From: Dictyophora rubrovolvata
Lineage: Eukaryota; Basidiomycota; Agaricomycetes; Phallales; Phallaceae
Direction: 5' to 3'
Assembly (NCBI GenBank): GCA_029959195.1
Contig: CP114123.1
Span: forward strand, 744,001-808,000
Length of the DNA stretch: 64,000 nucleotides
Numbering within the stretch: the first letter of the stretch is position 1; each line of letters opens with the position of its first letter. The notes beneath the pieces are model-generated. The model was not told where the DNA came from and ran no database searches. It was given only the letters and a program-made list of their open reading frames with translations. Shown here piece by piece: positions 15,063 to 26,335 of this stretch. A program made the position numbers and the translations under genes.

Positions 15063-17405
15063 GGCGCGGATGCAAATGGTTATATATACTACTAAAGTTC
15101 TCACTTTGCAATAATATTGTGTTCTATTGATTTACATTACAAAAAACACTTGTTACTTGCTTCATCTTCATCATTAATCATGCCCAACAATCTAGCTTTT
15201 ATTTGAATTCCCTATAAACAAGTACATGTCAATATCTAACTGAATCTATTCTATACACTAAATTAAACTGACCAGTGTCTTCGAATAATACCTCGACGTT
15301 ACGAAATCCCCAATGGCCCACCAAATCTAAAAAATTTTATTGAAACTCAATCACACCGAACTGAGTTATTGAACTCACTCCAGGATGTCCCGAAGGCGTA
15401 TACGCTCTTCTCAGTTCATGAACTTCATTAAATCCCCAAATAGGCGTAATTTTGCTCGTAATATCCTCTCCTAAAATCGGTAAAATAGCATTCTTCACGG
15501 GTTCGTAACCCGTAGCGAAAATAACAGCATCAGCTGGTAAGAATGAGCCGTCTTTGAATACTAGACCATCCGCGGTAAAACATTCTGGTTCTCCACGCTT
15601 GATTTTGATGTTCCCATTGATAATTAGGTCGGCGGCGCCGATATCCAATGCTAATAAAAACGAAAGTCAAGGAGAAAATTTGATTGGGTTTAAAGCGACG
15701 TACAATATCCTGTAAGGCCATCAGAGCCGTTCCGAAGAAAGATTATGGGATGAGTTTACCTCCCAGTCGCTGAAACACTCTGACAAAATGCCCCGCCCCT
15801 TCTTCACCTTCATCCACATTCAACCCAGCATTCAAAAGGCCCTCAATCATATCCTTCTGATCCGCGATCCGTTTTTCTCTTCCCGCAATCCCAAACTCTT
15901 TCAACAAACCGATAGAAATACCAGCACCTCTGAAATCTGCATTTCTCAAATTAGCATCGAGAGGATACGCCACGTCGAACATCGTCTTATGCATATATTT
16001 GGCACAGGTGATGATGAGACTGGATCGTTGAACCATTGTAACTGATTTGGCGTTGTGCAATGCCAGATTTTGACAGATATCTGCGGATGTTTGAGAGGCT
16101 CCTACGACGATCACGTTTTTGTTTGCGTAGGGTTGATATCCTCTGTAATTAGTCGCGTGGATTTTGGGTCCATTGAATAGATCGGCGTCGGGAAGAGGAG
16201 GAACGTATGGTTTGCCGAATGTTCCAATGGCTAATACAATATGGTAGGGTCTAAGTGTGACCTTTTCACCGTCCTTCAGGACTTCGACTGTCCATCGTCT
16301 AGTGGTAGGATTATATGAGGGCGTTGGAAGGATAGTCGAGCGGTTCCAGATCACTAAATCCTGATTTAAGGAATATTGCTCCAACATATTGGCTACTTTG
16401 TCTTTCGGAGTCCACTTTGGCCAGTTTTTCGGAAATTTGGTGTATAAAACTTGACAAAAAGTGTGAGAGAAAGTGGTAGAATTTTGATTGCTGAGAGACA
16501 TACGGGTATGGTGTGATTTGGGAGTATGTAGTGTTAAACTTGGATAACGTTCTCGCCAGTTGTCTCCAACCCTATCCGATTGTTCTAATAACAGAGTAGG
16601 TATATTCATTTGACGGAATCTCGCCCCGACGTGAAGGCCACTTTGAGCGGCACCCACTAAATAGGAATGGTAAGCATGCAAACATATCTTATGATAGTAA
16701 GTACATACAAATGATAACGTGAGGATCTTGTTCAATCTTTTTCTTCTCTTCTTCATAAACATCCAACCAAGTTTTCCGATGTTCATCGTAATATCCACTA
16801 GGTACTTGAGCGTCCTCCTCGTGTCCTTTCAGATCAACAGCACAAAAATAAACAGACAATGCCTTCCATGTCCCCTCTAATTCTTGTAACAAAATATACC
16901 CTCTTCCCCAAACCAGAGGAGTATTAAATGTGAAAGAGGCTTCAACAGCATGTCCACCGAAAGCAAATCCAGGCTGAATCCCATCCGGGCCTTCGAGAAG
17001 TAGATTCGCAATCTGAGCTTTCTCCAAATGTTTAGTTAGATATTCTTCGATATCATCAGGTCCTTTCAGTGAACGACAATTCCATTCGAAAACGAGATTG
17101 TCACGGAGCCAGCCGTTTGGTAAGAACAAGGAGGTTAGACGGCGTGCATCACCAGAACCGATGTATTCAGTGAATTTTTCAAACCAATCAGTGATTATGA
17201 TAGAAGGATTTTGCATGTTGCTTTGAACTGGGGCCGTTATCAGGCTCTGGACTTATATATGTCATGTCTGTCGTGTGAAAGAAGGGTAGTAGTAGTAGTA
17301 TCATGATGGTGTGGGAGGAGTGTACTAGGACTAGTTAGCACATTGCTTCGAATTCTTTGCACATGGATTTACCTGACTAATGATCTGAATCATTTTTAAA
17401 AAGTT
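15063..17405. repeat. Segmental duplication, unit A (FMO plus flanks)
   Basis: Matches 29555-31870 in the same orientation. The match covers the whole FMO gene, the FMO-ORC2 spacer to about 20 bases short of the ORC2 ATG, and about 190 bases upstream of the FMO start. The protein copies differ at roughly 30-35 of 603 residues by eye. Confidence 0.85.
15137..17216 (-). CDS. FAD-dependent monooxygenase with N-terminal NTF2-like domain, copy A
   Basis: Six exons (16709-17216, 15760-16656, 15704-15709, 15379-15650, 15273-15326, 15137-15211) join in phase to 603 residues. Residues 1-165 look like an NTF2/SnoaL-like domain (SIIITDWFEKFTEYIG). Then comes the FAD-binding motif ILGAAQSGLHVG (middle Gly of GxGxxG is Ala), RVGDNWRERYPSLTLHTP, the NADPH-binding motif VGASQTSADI (~355), and FATGY (~515). 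The C-terminus LGIQIKARLLG is recovered only if the last intron 15212-15272 is spliced. Exon 3 is a six-base micro-exon (GATATT) between strong splice sites. The family oxidises small lipophilic substrates; the substrate here is unknown. The gene is nearly identical to copy B at 29.6-31.7 kb. Confidence 0.88.
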
Positions 17406-17572: not shown

Positions 17573-17716
17573 TGAAGGGTGGATTTTCACGTCGGGCTAC
17601 GTTCCCTAGCATGCATGCGCAAGCCAAGGGCTCTGCACCACTAGTGGCGTCCAGGGCTGTCAGAGTCCTTGCATGCCTCGGCCTAGCGGAGTTAACATCA
17701 TATGTATATGATGCTT

Positions 17717-17730
17717 TGTCGCAAAAATCG
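17717..17730 (+). repeat. Left terminal inverted repeat of the Plavaka element
   Basis: TGTCGCAAAAATCG; exact reverse complement at 25715-25728. Confidence 0.8.
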
Positions 17731-17734
17731 GGAG

Positions 17735-18080
17735 TGTCTGATCTGGCCTGATCCGGCCTTCAGGCTCCGTCAGGAGGGAGAGACCTGATGGAGCCTTGAA
17801 AACCTGATCGGGTTGAAGACTTACATCTGGGAATGGACAGGACTGATCAGGATTTTAGGTGATGATCAGGAACCCTTGTGGTCGTTCAGGGATATTGGGG
17901 GATGGTCGGGAATTCGAACAGGATCCAGAAACGCCTGTCAGGATCAGGCTAGGGTTTCTAAATCAGGCTGACATTGGGCGGATTGGGATAGGTATACCAG
18001 ATAGGGTTTATCAATTCCAGACTCGCGTTTTATTGAATTAAATGGAACCAATGCATGCAAACAACACAAAATTTTATTAC
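17735..18080. repeat. Left subterminal repeat-word region
   Basis: Many short words of the type CTGATC, GATCAGG and GTCAGGA in both orientations up to about 17960; no coding potential. This is the likely binding region for the element's transposase. Confidence 0.55.
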
Positions 18081-18138
18081 TCATTTGTAACTAAAGTTTC
18101 GACATACACACAGCTATTATTTTAATAGCTAATAATTA

Positions 18139-18598
18139 CTAAATACTACAGGGCTTCTTATGGCCAAGGTCGAAAATACAAACCTAATTTTGGAAAAAAA
18201 TGTTAGACTAAGACAGGAAAAAAAAACGTAAAATACTTACCTTCAGACCCAGGACATTACGATTGTAACATGACTTTGGTAAGGGCTTGTTCTTGCAATA
18301 ATGGTAACAACCAGCAGGACAACTACCCTGGGATAACAAAATACCTGCATTTATCTGCAAATGCACACTCGCACTGTAGCATGTCAATTAAAACACTTAC
18401 TTTCTGTGACACAAATGTGATCCTGCAGTACAGGTTAAAATAGGGTGGCAGTTGCAGATAGACACTTACACAAGGAGCGCTGGACCCAGATGGTGGAAAG
18501 AGAAAAAGAGGTGTCCCGCAGGTGGTGTGTCCCCGGTCGGTCTTATATGTGAGTTTATATGCCTTATGTAATTTCTCGCTACTTAAGCATCCCTGCAT
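18139..18598 (-). CDS. Small Cys-rich protein of the Plavaka element
   Basis: Four exons (18470-18598, 18401-18422, 18241-18344, 18139-18183), the first three ending at GTAAGT donors, join in phase to 99 residues. The four-way phase agreement is the main evidence that this is a gene. It holds ten Cys, most densely in SCPAGCYHYCKNKP and later KSC, KVC and KPC, compatible with a metal cluster or disulfide-rich fold; no signal peptide is evident. I recognise no family. The ATG at 18598 lies only 80 bases from the divergent ATG of the coiled-coil gene. A longer 5' end is possible because an open frame continues upstream to 18631 and beyond. Confidence 0.6.
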
Positions 18599-18678
18599 GC
18601 AATGACACGACAGAAACCAGCAACCGGCCACTCTAGGCCATTCACTAGCATCTTTTTCTTTCTTCCCATCTTTTCACA

Positions 18679-19266
18679 ATGTCGCACAAAGAGAATGCTG
18701 CAATGCTATCTGGCTCAGAAACAGAACCAGACTTCGACTCAGAAACAGGTCTTCCGTTTCCAGACCATACTAGACCCGTAAGTGATAGCATACATGTTTA
18801 TTAATAGCTTGGAGAACTTAGCCGTGATGCTCTTTAGGATCCGATGCAAGCACGCATGCTGACCAGTGCATGTGCTCATGCATTTGAACAAGTTTTAAAT
18901 CGTGTTCGACTCAATGTGGAACTTGATGTTTTAATTGATGAAATCCGCGCTGTCAAGAATGAGGTTAGGGCTGTGAGGACAGAGGTTAAAGGGCTGAGGA
19001 ACGAGTTGCGGGCAGTTAGGGAAGATGTAACGGAAATAAGGACAACACAAAAAGTGATCTTTAGGTTGTCTGAGGTGACAAAGGAAGAAATGAGACAGTT
19101 AAAGGTGTCCCAAAGAGACATGGTTAAAGTGTGTGAGGCAACGAAGGAAGAAGTGGAAGGAGGAAAGAATTACCAAAGGGCTTCAGTGGTGGAGATGCAT
19201 AGTGTTTTTCAAGCTTGTGTTCAAGGGTTTGCAAATATTGCTGATGTATTAGAAAATAAGCCCTAG
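18679..19266 (+). CDS. Coiled-coil protein of the Plavaka element
   Basis: Two exons (18679-18777, 18838-19266) join in phase to 175 residues. The N-terminus is acidic and Ser-rich. From residue ~60 to ~115 there is a long heptad pattern (LIDEIRAVKNEVRAVRTEV, GLRNELRAVREDVTEIRTT). No family is recognised. The gene ends 54 bases from the convergent stop of the 648-residue companion gene. A role as an oligomerising partner of the transposase is only inferred from location. Confidence 0.65.
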
Positions 19267-19320
19267 TTAAAAACAGTTCATTTAACATTTCTATGCTAAA
19301 GGGCCTAAATATAGAAATCT

Positions 19321-21468
19321 TCAATGTTTCCTAACCCGAACACTACGACGAAGTGGTTGGCTAGGTCTTTGAGGTTGGTTTTCATCTGCATCGTTGTTGC
19401 TTTGAGTGGCATGGTGCTTTTGGATGACTGGTGTCCTCTTGCGTTTGGAGATTTTTGGTTGAATGGCCTGTGATTGTAGGTGTTGAGAATACGACATACT
19501 ACTTGTCTCTGACAAAGGCGATGAAGAATCTCTGTGAATATTAGGAGCAGTCGGAGTAGAATACTGTGTCAATCCAGTACCCGTTAGCTTAACAATTTGA
19601 TATGAGTCAATGACAGATACCATTCTTGGTGCAGTAGCTCGAGATTCTGGGTTATAACAGGTAGGAGATACATCCCGGAATACAGTTTGAGCAGATATGT
19701 TGGTTCGAGTTGATGCATTTCGAAATACAGTTTGGGCATTGGTTCTAGTTGGTACGTTCCGAGATACAGTTTGAGCAGGTGTGTGGGTTCGAGTTAATAC
19801 ATCCTGAGATATAGTTTGAGCAGGCATACTGGATCGGGTTGACATGTTCCGAGATATAGTTGGAGCAGGTATGTGGATTTGAGTCGATGTGTTTGGGAAT
19901 ACAGTTGGGGCAGCTATATCTCCATCAGCATCCCGCTCTTCATCACTTCTGGGTTCTTCGGGAAATAGTGCTGAATGTGCCGCAGTAGATTCATGCTCAT
20001 GGTTGGCAGCGTCTGAGTGCCTGGTTTCTCTATCGGTTGGTATATTTTCTGCACATGTTTCAGGCTCTTGAGCTTCGACATCTTCTTCATCAGCATCTTC
20101 TTGGGCACTCAGGTCAGCAAGAAGTGCTTCCAGGTTTTCATCGTCAGGTTTGGTAGGAATAGTGGTACTCGGAGAGGCCGTATCTGTGACACCTGGATAG
20201 AATACCTCATTCCAGACCTTGAAGATATCGAGTACATAAGACTTTTTATTGTACAAGCCTTTGTGAAGGTACTTGAAGTAATACTCGTAATCTTCCTGGT
20301 AGCTAATTCCAGTCTTTGAGCCGTGTGACAGTAAACTCTTGTCAGCAGATGCCATAAAACGCGCCTTGCAAAGATTGAATTCAACACATTATATGACGAG
20401 TTTAAATCATCCAAACATACCAGAATAGCTGCCATAGCTATTGCTCCAGGCGTGATTTGTCGAATAGCCCACTTCGACTCTAGTGTTATATGTGGTTCTT
20501 TCTTCGTCACATGCCCTTCTGGGAGACCTTTGATAGAACCAACACCGCGTACGAGTGCTGAATATGTCTATTTTTAATGTAAATACAGATGTTGAAAAAT
20601 GGCGAAAATTTAGCACTTACTTTCATTAACATGGGATGACGAAACATAGTCCAGTTTCGGTCAGGTTGGTCAGGATCTTCAGCGAATAAGATGGGTGATA
20701 GGGTGTGGTAAACATCTTTGCCGTCTTTTTGCCCAACAAATCCAATGAGATTTTTGAAGGTTTCACTGCGAGAGGGGACGTTGTTGTAAAGTTCATTGGA
20801 GCACTGTAGAATCAAAGGCCCAGCTTCATGAAGTCGGTTGGCAGCATTGGATCTTTGTTGTGCCATCTCATGTGTGAACTAAAAATATATCAGCAATGTC
20901 TAAGTCATAGTAATTAACTCACCTGCTTTGAAAATGCCTCGCTGCCCATGTCACTGTACAATATTCCAGGGGTGCTAGCTAGCAGGTCGGATAGTAATCC
21001 TTGCTGTTGCATGTCTTCAGAACGATAACGGTTCCTCGGTTCATATAATGGGTCACGCTCAAGCTCGAAAAACTGAACATCTGTTGGTCGGACCCAGAAG
21101 GAAGACATATAGGTGAATTTTCTTGCCAGGTGCTTGACTTTGTTACGGGTAACCGTATTACTGATATAGATGTTTTTGGGCTTCTTGGTCTGCCCATTAT
21201 CTTCTGACTCTGCAGTAGGTGGTTGTTGGTTTGGATGGGCCATGAGTTGACAGTTCGCGACAGTGGCAATCTCCTTGTCTTTGTTGGTCAGCTGAACGGT
21301 GAGTTGATTGATTTCAGCTTGTTTTTGCCTGAGAATCTGAAACAGGATATTAATTATATTGTCAAAACGGTAGATCACACCTACCTGTTTGTATGTTTCC
21401 ACAGATATATCTGTAGTACCACCCGTATCATCGGAAGGCCTGTCAGAACCGGCACCGGCCCTAACCAT
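19321..21468 (-). CDS. 648-residue companion protein of the Plavaka element (DUF6698-like)
   Basis: Five exons (21385-21468, 20923-21336, 20621-20878, 20421-20567, 19321-20364) join in phase. Residues 29-60 look like a coiled coil (LRQKQAEINQLTVQLTNKD). The conserved-looking core (~85-385) includes SPILFAEDPDQPDRNW, MFRHPMLMKTYSALVRGVGS, KWAIRQITPGAIAMAAILAR and YQEDYEYYFKYLHKG. From memory this layout resembles DUF6698, a domain common in agaricomycete repetitive genes; I am not certain. The C-terminal half is low-complexity and contains about six imperfect repeats of 13-16 residues (AQTVSRNVPTRTN type, DNA near 19660-19910), and the end is basic. The function is unknown, perhaps accessory to transposition. 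Confidence 0.7.
19660..19910 (-). repeat. In-frame tandem repeat in the companion gene
   Basis: About six copies of a 39-48-base unit encoding variants of [A-(Q/P)-T-(V/I)-x-(R/P)-(N/D)-x-x-T-R-T-x-x-P]. Copies differ in length by whole codons, so the frame is kept. Confidence 0.75.
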
Positions 21469-22057
21469 AGGTACAGTGGTGTGAATGAGGAGAGTAGAAG
21501 ATAGCACAGATATGAAAAGATGAAAGTCAATGGTGAGAATGACTGTCGAAAGATGATAGACCATGAGATAAACGCGAGTATAAGTACTTCGCTTCAGCAT
21601 GACATAAGGCGTCATGACAACAAATTCAAGTGGTTTTTTTTTTCCTCGCGATCGAAAACACAGAGATGGAGCCGGTTGGTATTGAATGGTGACAAGGAAC
21701 AGGTCTCTAATCAAGGGCACGGGTACAGATCTGAGAGGTAAGATGTCGGCCGCTCAGGGCTTAGAGATCAACCAGATCGATACAACAGGACATGACACTT
21801 GGTAGAGAGGTTGATTACCATCAGAGCAAGCTGTGAGACTGATGAGAAGGGAGATGATTCAACGGAACAAACAGATAATTCGTGGATGACCAAGTGTTGG
21901 AGTGACACCAATCTCAGTAGTCTCCGGACACTGGTCACATGTCACAGCTGTGATGAAATCCCTTTCGTTGAGTTCGTTGGCTCAACGTATATAATATAAA
22001 GGTACCTTCCACCGCTCTATAGTATGGCATTTTAATTGACATATTGTTGATAGCCGC
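21469..22057. promoter_or_regulatory. Divergent promoter region inside the Plavaka element
   Basis: 589 bases between the companion gene and the transposase gene, transcribed outward on both sides. A TATA-like tataatata run lies at 21988-21998, about 60 bases before the transposase ATG. Confidence 0.45.
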
Positions 22058-25000
22058 ATGTGGACTGAGAAGCCCCGCCATGTCCGACTTCAAAATGATG
22101 AAGCTTGGTGTGGCTTTTGTGCGCGCGTCAGGAAGAGACGTCGGATGGACAGACACATTGAAAGTTGTCGGTACCAATCCTTAGACCAACCACCCTCACC
22201 ACAGGCAAACCCTCAGGATCTACCAACAGATCCAATTGCCAATTATTTCCAGGCTGCTGGATCAACATTCCCTTCAGGCCCAGATGAAGCGCCAGGTATT
22301 TCCTAGTCAAATGATTACTTTATGCAAAACTGACTATGTTTCTCAGATGAACCTGAGTCGGAAGAAGAACCTGAGTCAGAAGAGGAAGCTTACAATCTAC
22401 ATCAAGATGGCAGGCGAGCTGACAATGGCCCGCAAGAATTCATACGCATCATTCCGCATCCAGACAGTGGATCTCCCCCCACCATAATTGCATTGGATAA
22501 ACCGGATGAACCGGATCAACAACGGCCATTACCTCAACGTCGTCCTGGACCTAGTCCCCATGACAGCCAACCTTGGGCTCCCTTTCGAACACGAGCCGAT
22601 TTCGAATTCTGTCGCATGACGGTCTCAAAAGCACTTGACCGAGAGACCATAGAAGTACTATTAGAAGGATTTAATGGTCGGTGGGCACATGAGACGGATA
22701 TAACTATCAAGAACTACAAAGATTATCAGAAGTCTTTGGCTGCCGCTCGTAAATTCGGCGTTCAAGTAAGTGTGCATCAGTTGCCTCCCTCAAGACATTC
22801 TGACTCTGAAACAAACAACCGGAGTTTGAAGAAGCAAAAGTCACGCATAACTTCAAGGGCAAAGACTATACCTTCACCTTTCAATACCGCGACCCGTGGC
22901 GATGCGTATTAGACATAGTAACCGATCCGACATTAGCAGAATCCATTTCTTGGTATCCTGTTGAGAAGTGGCTATATCATAAGGGACGGATTACTCGGAT
23001 ATATGATGAACTCAATACTGGCCAGCGCTGGTGGGAAATTCAGGTAAATAACCTCTCATTGCGAGTTCTGTCTCATGCAATTCTCTCTGACTTCACCAGA
23101 GCTCTCTGCCTAAAGAGCCCGGGCATCCCCATTGTTTCCTGCCACTACACTTGTGGCTTGATAAAAGCAGTGTAGCGAAGACTGTCACCAAACACCCTAT
23201 AATCCTGCGTGCCGGTTTCCTCCCAAGCGCGATTCGCAACAGCTCTGGCAATGGCGGAGGTGTCCTCATTGGATACATGCCCATAGTATGTGATTATTTA
23301 TTTACTCACCTAATGTGATGTACCTGACATATCCGCAGATTTCAGAAACCCATAGTTCAGTCGAAGAAGAAGATGACTCTATGACCTCTGTAGAGTTCGC
23401 GAGGTTCAAGAGAGAAGTCTACCACAAGATTCACCATGTCATTTTTCGCACAATTCGCCGGCACTCCCACAATGGCGAAGCGGTCATTTGTGGTGATGCA
23501 TTCACTCGGATCTTGCATTTCGGAATCTTCATTCATGCCATTGACAATGAAGAGGCGTGTTGCATATGTGGAACGCGCGGAGCTCAAGCCAATCATCCTT
23601 GCCCACGTTGCCTAGCTCATCGTCTCTCACTCACACAACTAACAATATCACCCACACTTCGAACTCCGGAACACATGAAAGCAGTCTTTGAAGAAGCTTT
23701 AATGTTGCCCACCACTGCGGCTGAAAAGCTCCTCCGGGACTCAGGACTACATTTAGTGAAGGTAAGTACTTGTGCTCCTGAATCAATCTGGGATTAAAGT
23801 GTCTCCAGAATGCATTTTGGAGTATCGCCAACTCCGATCCATACTTCGCATATTCCTACGATATGCTACATGCCATGGACTCTGGCGAATGGGGCAAACA
23901 CCAGTGGGTGTTACTGACAGACAATATACTAAATACGCAGGAGCTGAGGCAACTTTCCCTCAAGTAAGCACCTTTAGCAATGCACAGTCTCCGCTTATTT
24001 TAAATTCTAACCTTTCAAGCATGCGGGATATCCCCCGATGGCGTTCACTCAAGCATTTCAATCATGTCACGGGTGTAGATTTTGCGGATGGCAACAGCTA
24101 TCGTGACATATTGAAGGTATGTATTCCACTACTGTTAACGACTCCTATTTATTAATAATTATCAGGGCATTGTCTTTTGCTTAGCGAGCATCCTCCCCGC
24201 AAATTCGCCAGTCATACATTGCTTCCGTACCTTGGCTGTCATTCGAAGTCTTGCTGTCCTTCGCCCCGTCTCCCAAGAACATATATCGTATCTAATTGAG
24301 TGTCTCCCTACTTATGAAAAGTATTGTGCGGTGAGTGCCCAACCATGTCACTTAAGCCTAACTATGTACTGATGATTCAGGAATTAACACGACTTTATGG
24401 TAAAAATTATGCTTACCCAAAACATCATGCCCTCGTCCATCTGCCCTTTGATTTAAAAATGAAGGGATCTACGGATAACTACACAACGCGGCCCGGAGAA
24501 GGGTTTCAGCAAGAGGTCCAGCAAGCTTATGATCAGACGAATTTTCGGGACACGGAGAAACAGGTACGCAACTACTTTACAGTCTATTTTCCCCAAATGA
24601 ACTTATCAAATATGTTAGATGACCCGGATCGATGAAAACCAAGAGGCAATAGCAAGAATAACCCTTGCTGTCAACGAGTATGACAAGGCTGAACAAATGG
24701 CTACTGAGGAGGAGGCTGATAATGATGGTGACAAACCGCCGCCGCCAGTAATAGAAAGCGGTCATTGGAAATTGGGATCCCCGTTACCCGCAGTTTCTGC
24801 AGAGCAGTGGGAGTTAGATGCGGTTGGGAGACGTCCTTTCAATCAGTTTGAGAGCCGACTGAGGGCATTTTTAACTGAATTTTTACCGGAGAGCGAACAG
24901 CCGTTAAATTCATTCAAGGTGTGTTTTTGGGTGGTCCGATGTCACGTCTTAATGGTTTTTAGGTTGAACCATATCGATGTCTATATCTCAAGTACCGCTC

Positions 25001-25403
25001 TTTAGAAAACTGGCAAGAAAAAGAAGACATCTTGCGATGTAATTCTGAATTCTTTGGTCAACCCCGTTATGACTGTGTTGTGATCAACACCGAACCTATA
25101 TCTTTTGGTCGCATTCACGCGTTATTGACCTTCAAAAGTCGCTCTCGGAACTCCCATAATATCGCATTAATAACATACTTGGAACCCTCGACATGGAAAC
25201 CCAAGACGAAATGGGAGGGTTGCCAGGTCTTCAAAGAGTCCAATAGAGCTGAGTTTGTCTTCGCAAAATATCTCATCCGCGGCTGCCACATGATCCCGGC
25301 CTTCGACAAGTCAGGCAGAATTTTTTATCTCAATGATTTAGTGGACTCGGATGCTTTTCTTCGTTTTTTCTTGCAGACACGGCTCCGCCAAACGGATATA
25401 TGA
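22058..25403 (+). CDS. Plavaka-type transposase
   Basis: Eleven exons (22058-22295, 22347-22765, 22825-23043, 23100-23285, 23339-23761, 23809-23963, 24020-24116, 24166-24330, 24381-24563, 24619-24918, 24963-25403) join in phase to 941 residues without a stop. N-terminus: a C2HC finger (CGFCARVRKRRRMDRHIESC). Core landmarks of the family: WYPVEKWLYHKGRITRIYDE; LHLWLDKSS with a candidate catalytic Asp at ~313; AVICGDAF with a second Asp at ~407; and a Cys cluster CCICGTRG/PCPRC that may bind zinc. Then LPRWRSL-type MRDIPRWRSLKHFNHVTGV, YPKHHALVHLPFDLKMKGS and a C-terminal domain with ILRCNSEFFGQPRYDCVV. It cuts and pastes the element by binding its termini. The exon 3 acceptor (CGGAG) is the weakest site. 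Confidence 0.85.
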
Positions 25404-25728
25404 CACGACACGATTTAATCTTATGTATATATATATAGGAGAAATAAAGTGTTTACAAATTTCTATACAGTTGTTACCAACAACACTCAAAACTTAATTA
25501 GTATTCGTTAGTCGCCAACGGTGGGGCCCTGCCAGCTCGCATCAGGCAGTTAGTAGTAGTCGGTCGCCATCAGGACCTTCGGGCTCGGTCAGGTTGGGGC
25601 TTTGCCGGTCTCCGTCACTCGTGGCCGGTCTCCAACAGTCTCCTTCAGTCGCCGTCAGTCACCGTCAGGACCTTCAGGCTCGGTCAGATTGGGACGTGCC
25701 AGATCAGGCGCGGGCGATTTTTGCGACA
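25404..25728. repeat. Right subterminal region and terminal inverted repeat
   Basis: Non-coding; rich in GTCAG/TCAGGACCTTC words around 25540-25700, closing with the inverted repeat 25715-25728. Confidence 0.6.
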
Positions 25729-26335
25729 TTGGATTCGTCAATCGTTAATATTAATCATCGCGTGGAGAGACAATCTTATCAACGACAAATACACACCGCT
25801 GCCGCACAGCAACTTCCCGGGCCAAAGAATACCATAACCCGTCGGTGTGATGAGTTCAAATCCTGAACATGAACCTTTCGTCCACTTGGTGGCAGCGAAT
25901 GATTGTCCTACATGTTAACATCAAGTTCCCACGCCTAGCAAAATAGCGTGACGTGGTTGTTTTTTTTATCCTATCTAGTGTTCCTCCTTGTTCCTCTGGA
26001 ACGTACCTATGTGATGGGTCCCGAAGACTTCTCCAGGCAGCCGGCTCTCCCTGCATCGACACCCACAACTTCATTAATCATTACCCGCCCCCTCAACTAA
26101 TTTCGCACATGCCTATACCATTGAAAGCCTATCTCTCAGCGACGTGATGAAGAACTGTCGCAACTAGCGGTTATGGTTTAGATAGAACTTGTTATTTAGT
26201 GCTCGAAATATAGAGCTTTATATACAAAATTATAAATATGAAAAAGGTAAAAACTAACTACCGGGATTTATAATATTTTACTAAGACTTAACTAATGCGT
26301 CGTCGGCGACGACGCAATATTAATTTGACTGTTAG
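25729..26335. other. Flank of the Plavaka element, no gene recognised
   Basis: AT-rich. It contains the short palindrome at 26297-26315 (gcgtcgtcg, one base, cgacgacgc). Confidence 0.5.

Follow-up and report, generated by a model that had tools for sequence, protein, structure and literature searches.

A PlavakaA transposon of Dictyophora rubrovolvata with recurring DUF6698 and coiled-coil-like genes beside its transposase

Results

In this study, we analysed a 64,000-nt stretch of the genome of the fungus Dictyophora rubrovolvata (assembly GCA_029959195.1, contig CP114123.1, positions 744,001 to 808,000; hereafter the window, to which coordinates without a contig or locus label refer). The window is part of contig C7 in a genome of 28.2 Mb and 11 contigs, and at 17717-25728 it contains an 8012 bp element, called W here, with a transposase gene, T, and two accessory genes, A and B. 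W ends in inverted arms of 31 nt (17717-17747 on the plus strand and 25698-25728 on the minus strand), which are 84% complementary and exact in their outermost 14 bases (TGTCGCAAAAATCG at the left end), and it is flanked by a duplicated TT (17715-17716 and 25729-25730), the junctions reading CTT/TGTCGC on the left and GCGACA/TTG on the right. A twin of W (locus L009, C2:626473-634484) is 99.79% identical across 8012 bp, with 17 substitutions and no insertions or deletions; the match begins and ends exactly at the ends of W, and AA is duplicated at the C2 site. The element boundaries are thus fixed by two independent insertions, and the claim of an earlier sequence-only reading of this DNA, that it is a Plavaka-type element with inverted ends, is borne out to the base. 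That reading had also described subterminal repeat arrays, which are indeed present: ATC[ACT]GG-type motifs number 15 within the outer 600 bp, with 11 in the left subterminal region (17717-18016) and four, together with GTCAG repeats, in the right one (25429-25728), compared with 9 across the inner 7.4 kb (Fisher p 1e-11, a post hoc value, as the motif was chosen from a k-mer ranking of W itself). The enrichment recurs in two further copies, L010 and L023.

Gene T (22058-25403, plus strand) has 11 exons and, when its GT..AG introns are removed, reads through 941 codons to a stop; the models of A and B were likewise built by GT..AG splicing of the genomic sequence. The open eleven-exon, 941-residue transposase claimed previously therefore stands, and its product carries the Pfam Plavaka transposase domain PF18759 (E 1.4e-43, 149.8 bits versus a cut-off of 26.3). 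The candidate active-site residues are D313, D407, C442/C445, H650/H654 and E674, in columns invariant or nearly so in 32 relatives. Among 117 related proteins, the best are found in Sphaerobolus, followed by Dentipellis, Mycena and others. The predicted structure of one relative, P0006, has a RAG1-like transposase fold; the part aligned with RAG1 in this model corresponds to T residues 160-718 (22586-24687), and T residues 742-920 (24757-25337) are BAH-like by fold comparison of P0006 only. Pfam BAH gave no match in T at E up to 1 and was absent, with E up to 0.5, from the listed family matches of the 32 relatives, and a sequence search of solved structures with profiles of B and T returned only weak, unrelated names.

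PlavakaA has been defined by 5'-TGT..ACA-3' ends and a 2-bp target-site duplication (TSD), as given in passages of Kojima (2025, PMC12730594). The ends of W, TGTCGC..GCGACA, agree with this definition, a 2-bp TSD is present at W (TT) and altogether at 8 of 9 full-length copies, and T has the expected D, D and E, the C(2)C and H(3-4)H motifs lying after the second D and before the E. Judged by domain, ends, TSD and catalytic residues, W belongs to the PlavakaA lineage (CACTA/Transib/RAG1 clade) of cut-and-paste DNA transposons; it appears to be young and recently moved, and is possibly autonomous.

Gene A (18679-19266, plus strand; exons 18679-18777 and 18838-19266) encodes a protein of 175 aa with an acidic SETEPD motif and a coiled-coil-like part, for which the Pfam matches are weak, mostly to coiled-coil families and all under the cut-offs. 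The acidic motif, in the form S[EA]TEPD, is found once in gene A of W, twice in its relative at L022:7306-7983 and three times in that of the C1 element (L023, L015). Gene B (19321-21468, minus strand) has 5 exons and encodes 648 aa with a DUF6698 domain (PF20414; E 1.6e-7, 31.7 bits versus a cut-off of 23.7), Ser/Thr/Pro-rich repeats and a basic tail. A and B lie on opposite strands with their stop codons 54 bases apart, and B and T diverge from an intergenic stretch (21469-22057) that is a putative promoter region. Relatives of B were found in Sphaerobolus (nine) and Flammula (one), with PF20414 in 8 of the 10; in three of the nine Sphaerobolus cases (contig sizes 3052012, 1207015 and 776725) the contig size is equal for a B and a T protein, which suggests that the two genes may be linked there as well.

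Other copies of the element show that the accessory genes belong to it. The full-length copies L010 (C6) and L011 (C11) are 79-80% identical to W at aligned sites and 98.6% identical to each other, and the elements at L022 (C7:365k) and C1:306k are more diverged from W; the order A(+), B(-), T(+) is common to W and these four. A further family, K, comprises three copies of 11.6 kb (C7:704052-715674, which is L035:4553 through L026:6675; one from C6:811080; and C7:393358-404944) that are about 99.3% identical, with T 38-53% identical to that of W by exon. The K copies have a relative of B on the minus strand (hhalign probability 97.7), exons of which are present in all three, and between B and T a protein kinase gene, which a host locus, C11:378970, matches at 92%. 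The TSDs are TT at W, AA at C2, CA at C11, TA at L022, TG at C1 and CG, AA and AT at the K copies, with none at the C6 copy (L010); a damaged copy, L024, is omitted from this count, as its left end is missing.

Linkage was counted over the 11 loci with at least 5 T-matching pieces, a threshold that leaves aside C11:439-440k (2 pieces), C2:2988540 (1) and the distant loci C6:896k and C2:133k (1 each). At 10 of the 11 (W, C2, C6, C11, C7:365k, C1:306k, the three K copies and C4:2669k), B lies close to T and always has the same orientation relative to it; at C4:2669k the relative of B lies 5.4 kb upstream of T, the left end of this element being untraced. The linkage of T and B extends over diverged subfamilies. 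The sole locus without B, C7:1936k, has other repeats in its place. Gene A is present at 7 of the 11 T loci, at C1 weakly (E 0.002 and 0.004). Searches with the W proteins of B and of A matched 6 loci each, and one K-family B exon matched 7, all of them transposase loci. The possibility that A and B are recent captures of host genes was rejected, since these searches led to transposase loci only, whereas the K-family kinase and the ribosomal fragment described below each have a host copy. The claim that the extra genes are part of the element is upheld, A and B recurring in other copies between termini of this kind. In the damaged copy (L024:1573-5187), gene B is replaced by repeats that are also found near L018, L020, L022 and L028.

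The ratio of non-synonymous to synonymous divergence (dN/dS; codons with gaps or stops excluded, intervals calculated for W and L010 only) is 0.133 (0.106-0.163) for T between W and L010, and 0.079 for its catalytic part. For A it is 0.162 (0.088-0.276), and for B 0.387 overall, with 0.310 (0.222-0.432) in the core and 0.464 in the tail, the loosest part. T, B and A have thus been under purifying selection between W and L010, and both accessory proteins have been kept. In each of the four copies compared with W (L009, L010, L011 and L024), at least one of the three frames is interrupted as aligned: a nonsense change affects B codon 516 of 648 in the twin L009, a single stop falls in the repeat-rich tail of B in L010, L011 carries one stop in the B tail and another at T codon 379, and T of L024 contains several. 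Of the 17 differences between W and its twin, 9 are CpG transitions (binomial p 9e-7), as are 91 of the 117 between L010 and L011 (p 1e-76), and the element is CpG-poor, with an observed/expected ratio of 0.74 versus 0.96 for the window. This CpG-type decay and depletion would fit cytosine methylation of the copies.

Four multi-exon genes had been claimed for the element; T, B and A are open, and the fourth turned out to be a decayed fragment of a captured host gene for ribosomal protein uL16 (RPL10), at about 18150-18350 on the minus strand, which has kept the host intron and lost the start codon. It lies to the left of gene A and aligns to the host gene at C6:1523019-1523406, the product of which is uL16 (PF00252, E 6.9e-19); a reading of 18150-18350 as a small cysteine-rich protein was dropped once this match appeared. 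W, the C2 twin, L010, L011 and L024 all contain the relic, with an in-frame stop in its first exon in the last three, and it had no match in L022 or L023. Its divergence between W and L010 (52/168 sites, 31%) is near that of the T introns (140/506, 28%). This distribution and the intron-like divergence point to a single DNA-level capture before W and L010 split, and the relic, which is no working gene, would be a passenger. At the host locus (L016:4020-5246, C6:1523019-1524245), two uL16 copies lie head to head; in the alignment the second is missing a piece of coding exon 2, and it seems to be broken.

The termini also delimit short elements, so that, on the question whether they mark other copies, they do so for full-length and short ones alike. 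The terminal 14-mer occurs 171 times in the genome with at most one mismatch, versus 7 times for a reversed control, and among the exact matches listed there are 18 inverted pairs at most about 730 bp apart. L040, L041 and L042 and the paired termini represent short elements, several of them 150 bp long with perfect inverted ends, which carry the 14-base terminus together with a further part of the K-family end; three 150-bp elements that were checked have perfect ends and TSDs of AT, TA and TA, and their inner ends are closer to the K family than to W. Three other copies of 1.7-2.3 kb (L013:6134-7843, L014:3142-4861 and L018:4539-6820) have only W-like ends and an unrelated interior; L018 has a TA TSD, L013 has none (TG/AC) and the end bases of L014 are altered. 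Outside the element, a 187-aa open frame on the minus strand (16689-17252) ends 465 bp from the left end of W.

Discussion

We propose that W is a young, possibly autonomous PlavakaA element with a three-gene kit, in which B and A serve as dedicated, TnpA-like partners of T, a reading in which our confidence is about even. According to this model, T would bind the TGTCGCAAAAATCG termini, cut both ends and reinsert the element by means of its RAG1-like active site, and the BAH-like end of the transposase might anchor this complex on chromatin. B, with its DUF6698 domain and basic tail, would be a dedicated nuclear partner of T, probably together with the coiled-coil-like A, and the two might act on the repeat-rich subterminal DNA as TnpA does in maize Spm, either aiding the assembly of the ends or preventing silencing. 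The partnership of B and A with T is what we infer here. For Spm, passages of one source report that TNPA binds the subterminal repeats and that TNPA and TNPD are both required (PMC2613891), and according to parts of another, activation by TnpA is accompanied by demethylation (PMC10398659). Silencing escape, chromatin binding and transposition control, which the sequence-only reading had named as possible roles of the accessory genes, are candidate roles, of which the first two are made reasonable by the CpG-type decay and by the BAH-like fold at the end of the transposase relative.

Several observations weigh against this proposal. L022 and K26 show no enrichment of the subterminal motif found in W, though both carry B, and the K copies have no convincing A, only a coiled-coil-like open reading frame in its place. 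The twin has spread, or has persisted, with its B gene truncated, although the nonsense change could be later than the insertion. The predicted structure of a DUF6698 relative is poor (pLDDT 48) and gave no fold match at E <= 0.001. Finally, the DUF6698 profile found two loci without a nearby Plavaka match, on C11 and C1 (L038:2044-2178 and L039:1416-1755), at which tblastn recovered no B-like gene; these may be host genes or the remnants of other elements, and the exon-by-exon profile search was itself incomplete, as it missed gene B of W.

It is unlikely, in our view, that B and A are primarily anti-silencing factors, which counter host methylation as VANC does for VANDAL and have no direct part in cutting and joining. 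The CpG-type decay (91 of the 117 L010-L011 differences) and the low CpG content of the element would suit such a role, as would the difference in subterminal motif among subfamilies, since the targets of VANC diverge fast (passages of PMC10398659); however, neither B nor A was found to resemble a known DNA-modifying or chromatin protein. We consider it distinctly improbable that the two are self-limiting regulators, which repress the transposase or the element promoters and so restrain copy number. Full-length elements are few in the genome, and the single intergenic stretch from which B and T would be transcribed suits feedback, but nothing specific favours repression over help, and a repressor would be expected to be easier to lose, whereas B has stayed near T at nearly all loci.

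The element might also be already immobile, its gene set intact by chance and the accessory genes now irrelevant. The incomplete complementarity of the arms and the broken B gene of the twin speak for this; yet the frames and splice sites of W are open in all three genes, the terminal 14 bases are exact, two near-identical copies each have a clean TSD and dN/dS is well under 1, and we regard this explanation as rather unlikely. More speculatively, and with fairly low confidence, the partnership of T with B and A may be extended: the system could be an independent fungal counterpart of RAG1-RAG2, in which a RAG1-like transposase has a C-terminal BAH-like chromatin-reading domain, and DUF6698 and acidic coiled-coil partners, co-inherited across diverged subfamilies, control end assembly and chromatin access.

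Known systems share parts of this arrangement. En/Spm, as described in passages of PMC2613891, likewise has a transposase and a second element protein, with subterminal repeats inside short terminal inverted repeats; however, its TnpD and TnpA are splice products of one gene, whereas the partners in W are separate genes, B is divergent from T and DNA binding is putative. With RAG1/Transib and RAG1L/RAG2L (PMC7204232), W shares the RAG1-like transposase fold, seen in the model of a T relative, and a dedicated partner gene. In contrast to these, no relation between B and RAG2 was detected, W has a TSD of 2 bp and the C-terminal part of T is BAH-like. The TSD of RAG-like elements is 5 bp. VANDALs, for their part, belong to a different superfamily. 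What W has in common with VANDAL and VANC, according to passages of PMC10398659, is the presence of additional genes on the element with a presumed action on noncoding repeats that change rapidly, but anti-silencing is established for VANC in that source and is a guess for B and A.

Plavaka elements themselves are already known, the original description reportedly being that of Iyer et al. in 2014; what appears to be new here is the recurring DUF6698 and coiled-coil-like partner genes. Plavaka families have been described with or without a TET/JBP gene in the parts of PMC12730594 that concern them; these passages on Plavaka name no DUF6698 or coiled-coil gene of the kind present in W and no partner gene besides TET/JBP, and neither BAH nor 'accessory' occurs in that paper. 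DUF6698 was not named in the literature searched, an earlier mention being possible, and a search for BAH together with transposase gave no title on such a combination among the matches listed.

Plavaka elements make up a notable share of some mushroom genomes and have been described, in the passages available on them, by their transposase and sometimes a TET gene. With a recurring multi-gene kit and a candidate intact copy, the mechanism of Plavaka becomes testable, and the DUF6698 family gains a first biological setting. Furthermore, a transposase of the RAG1 type that ends in a BAH-like part is relevant to how the relatives of RAG and CACTA engage chromatin.

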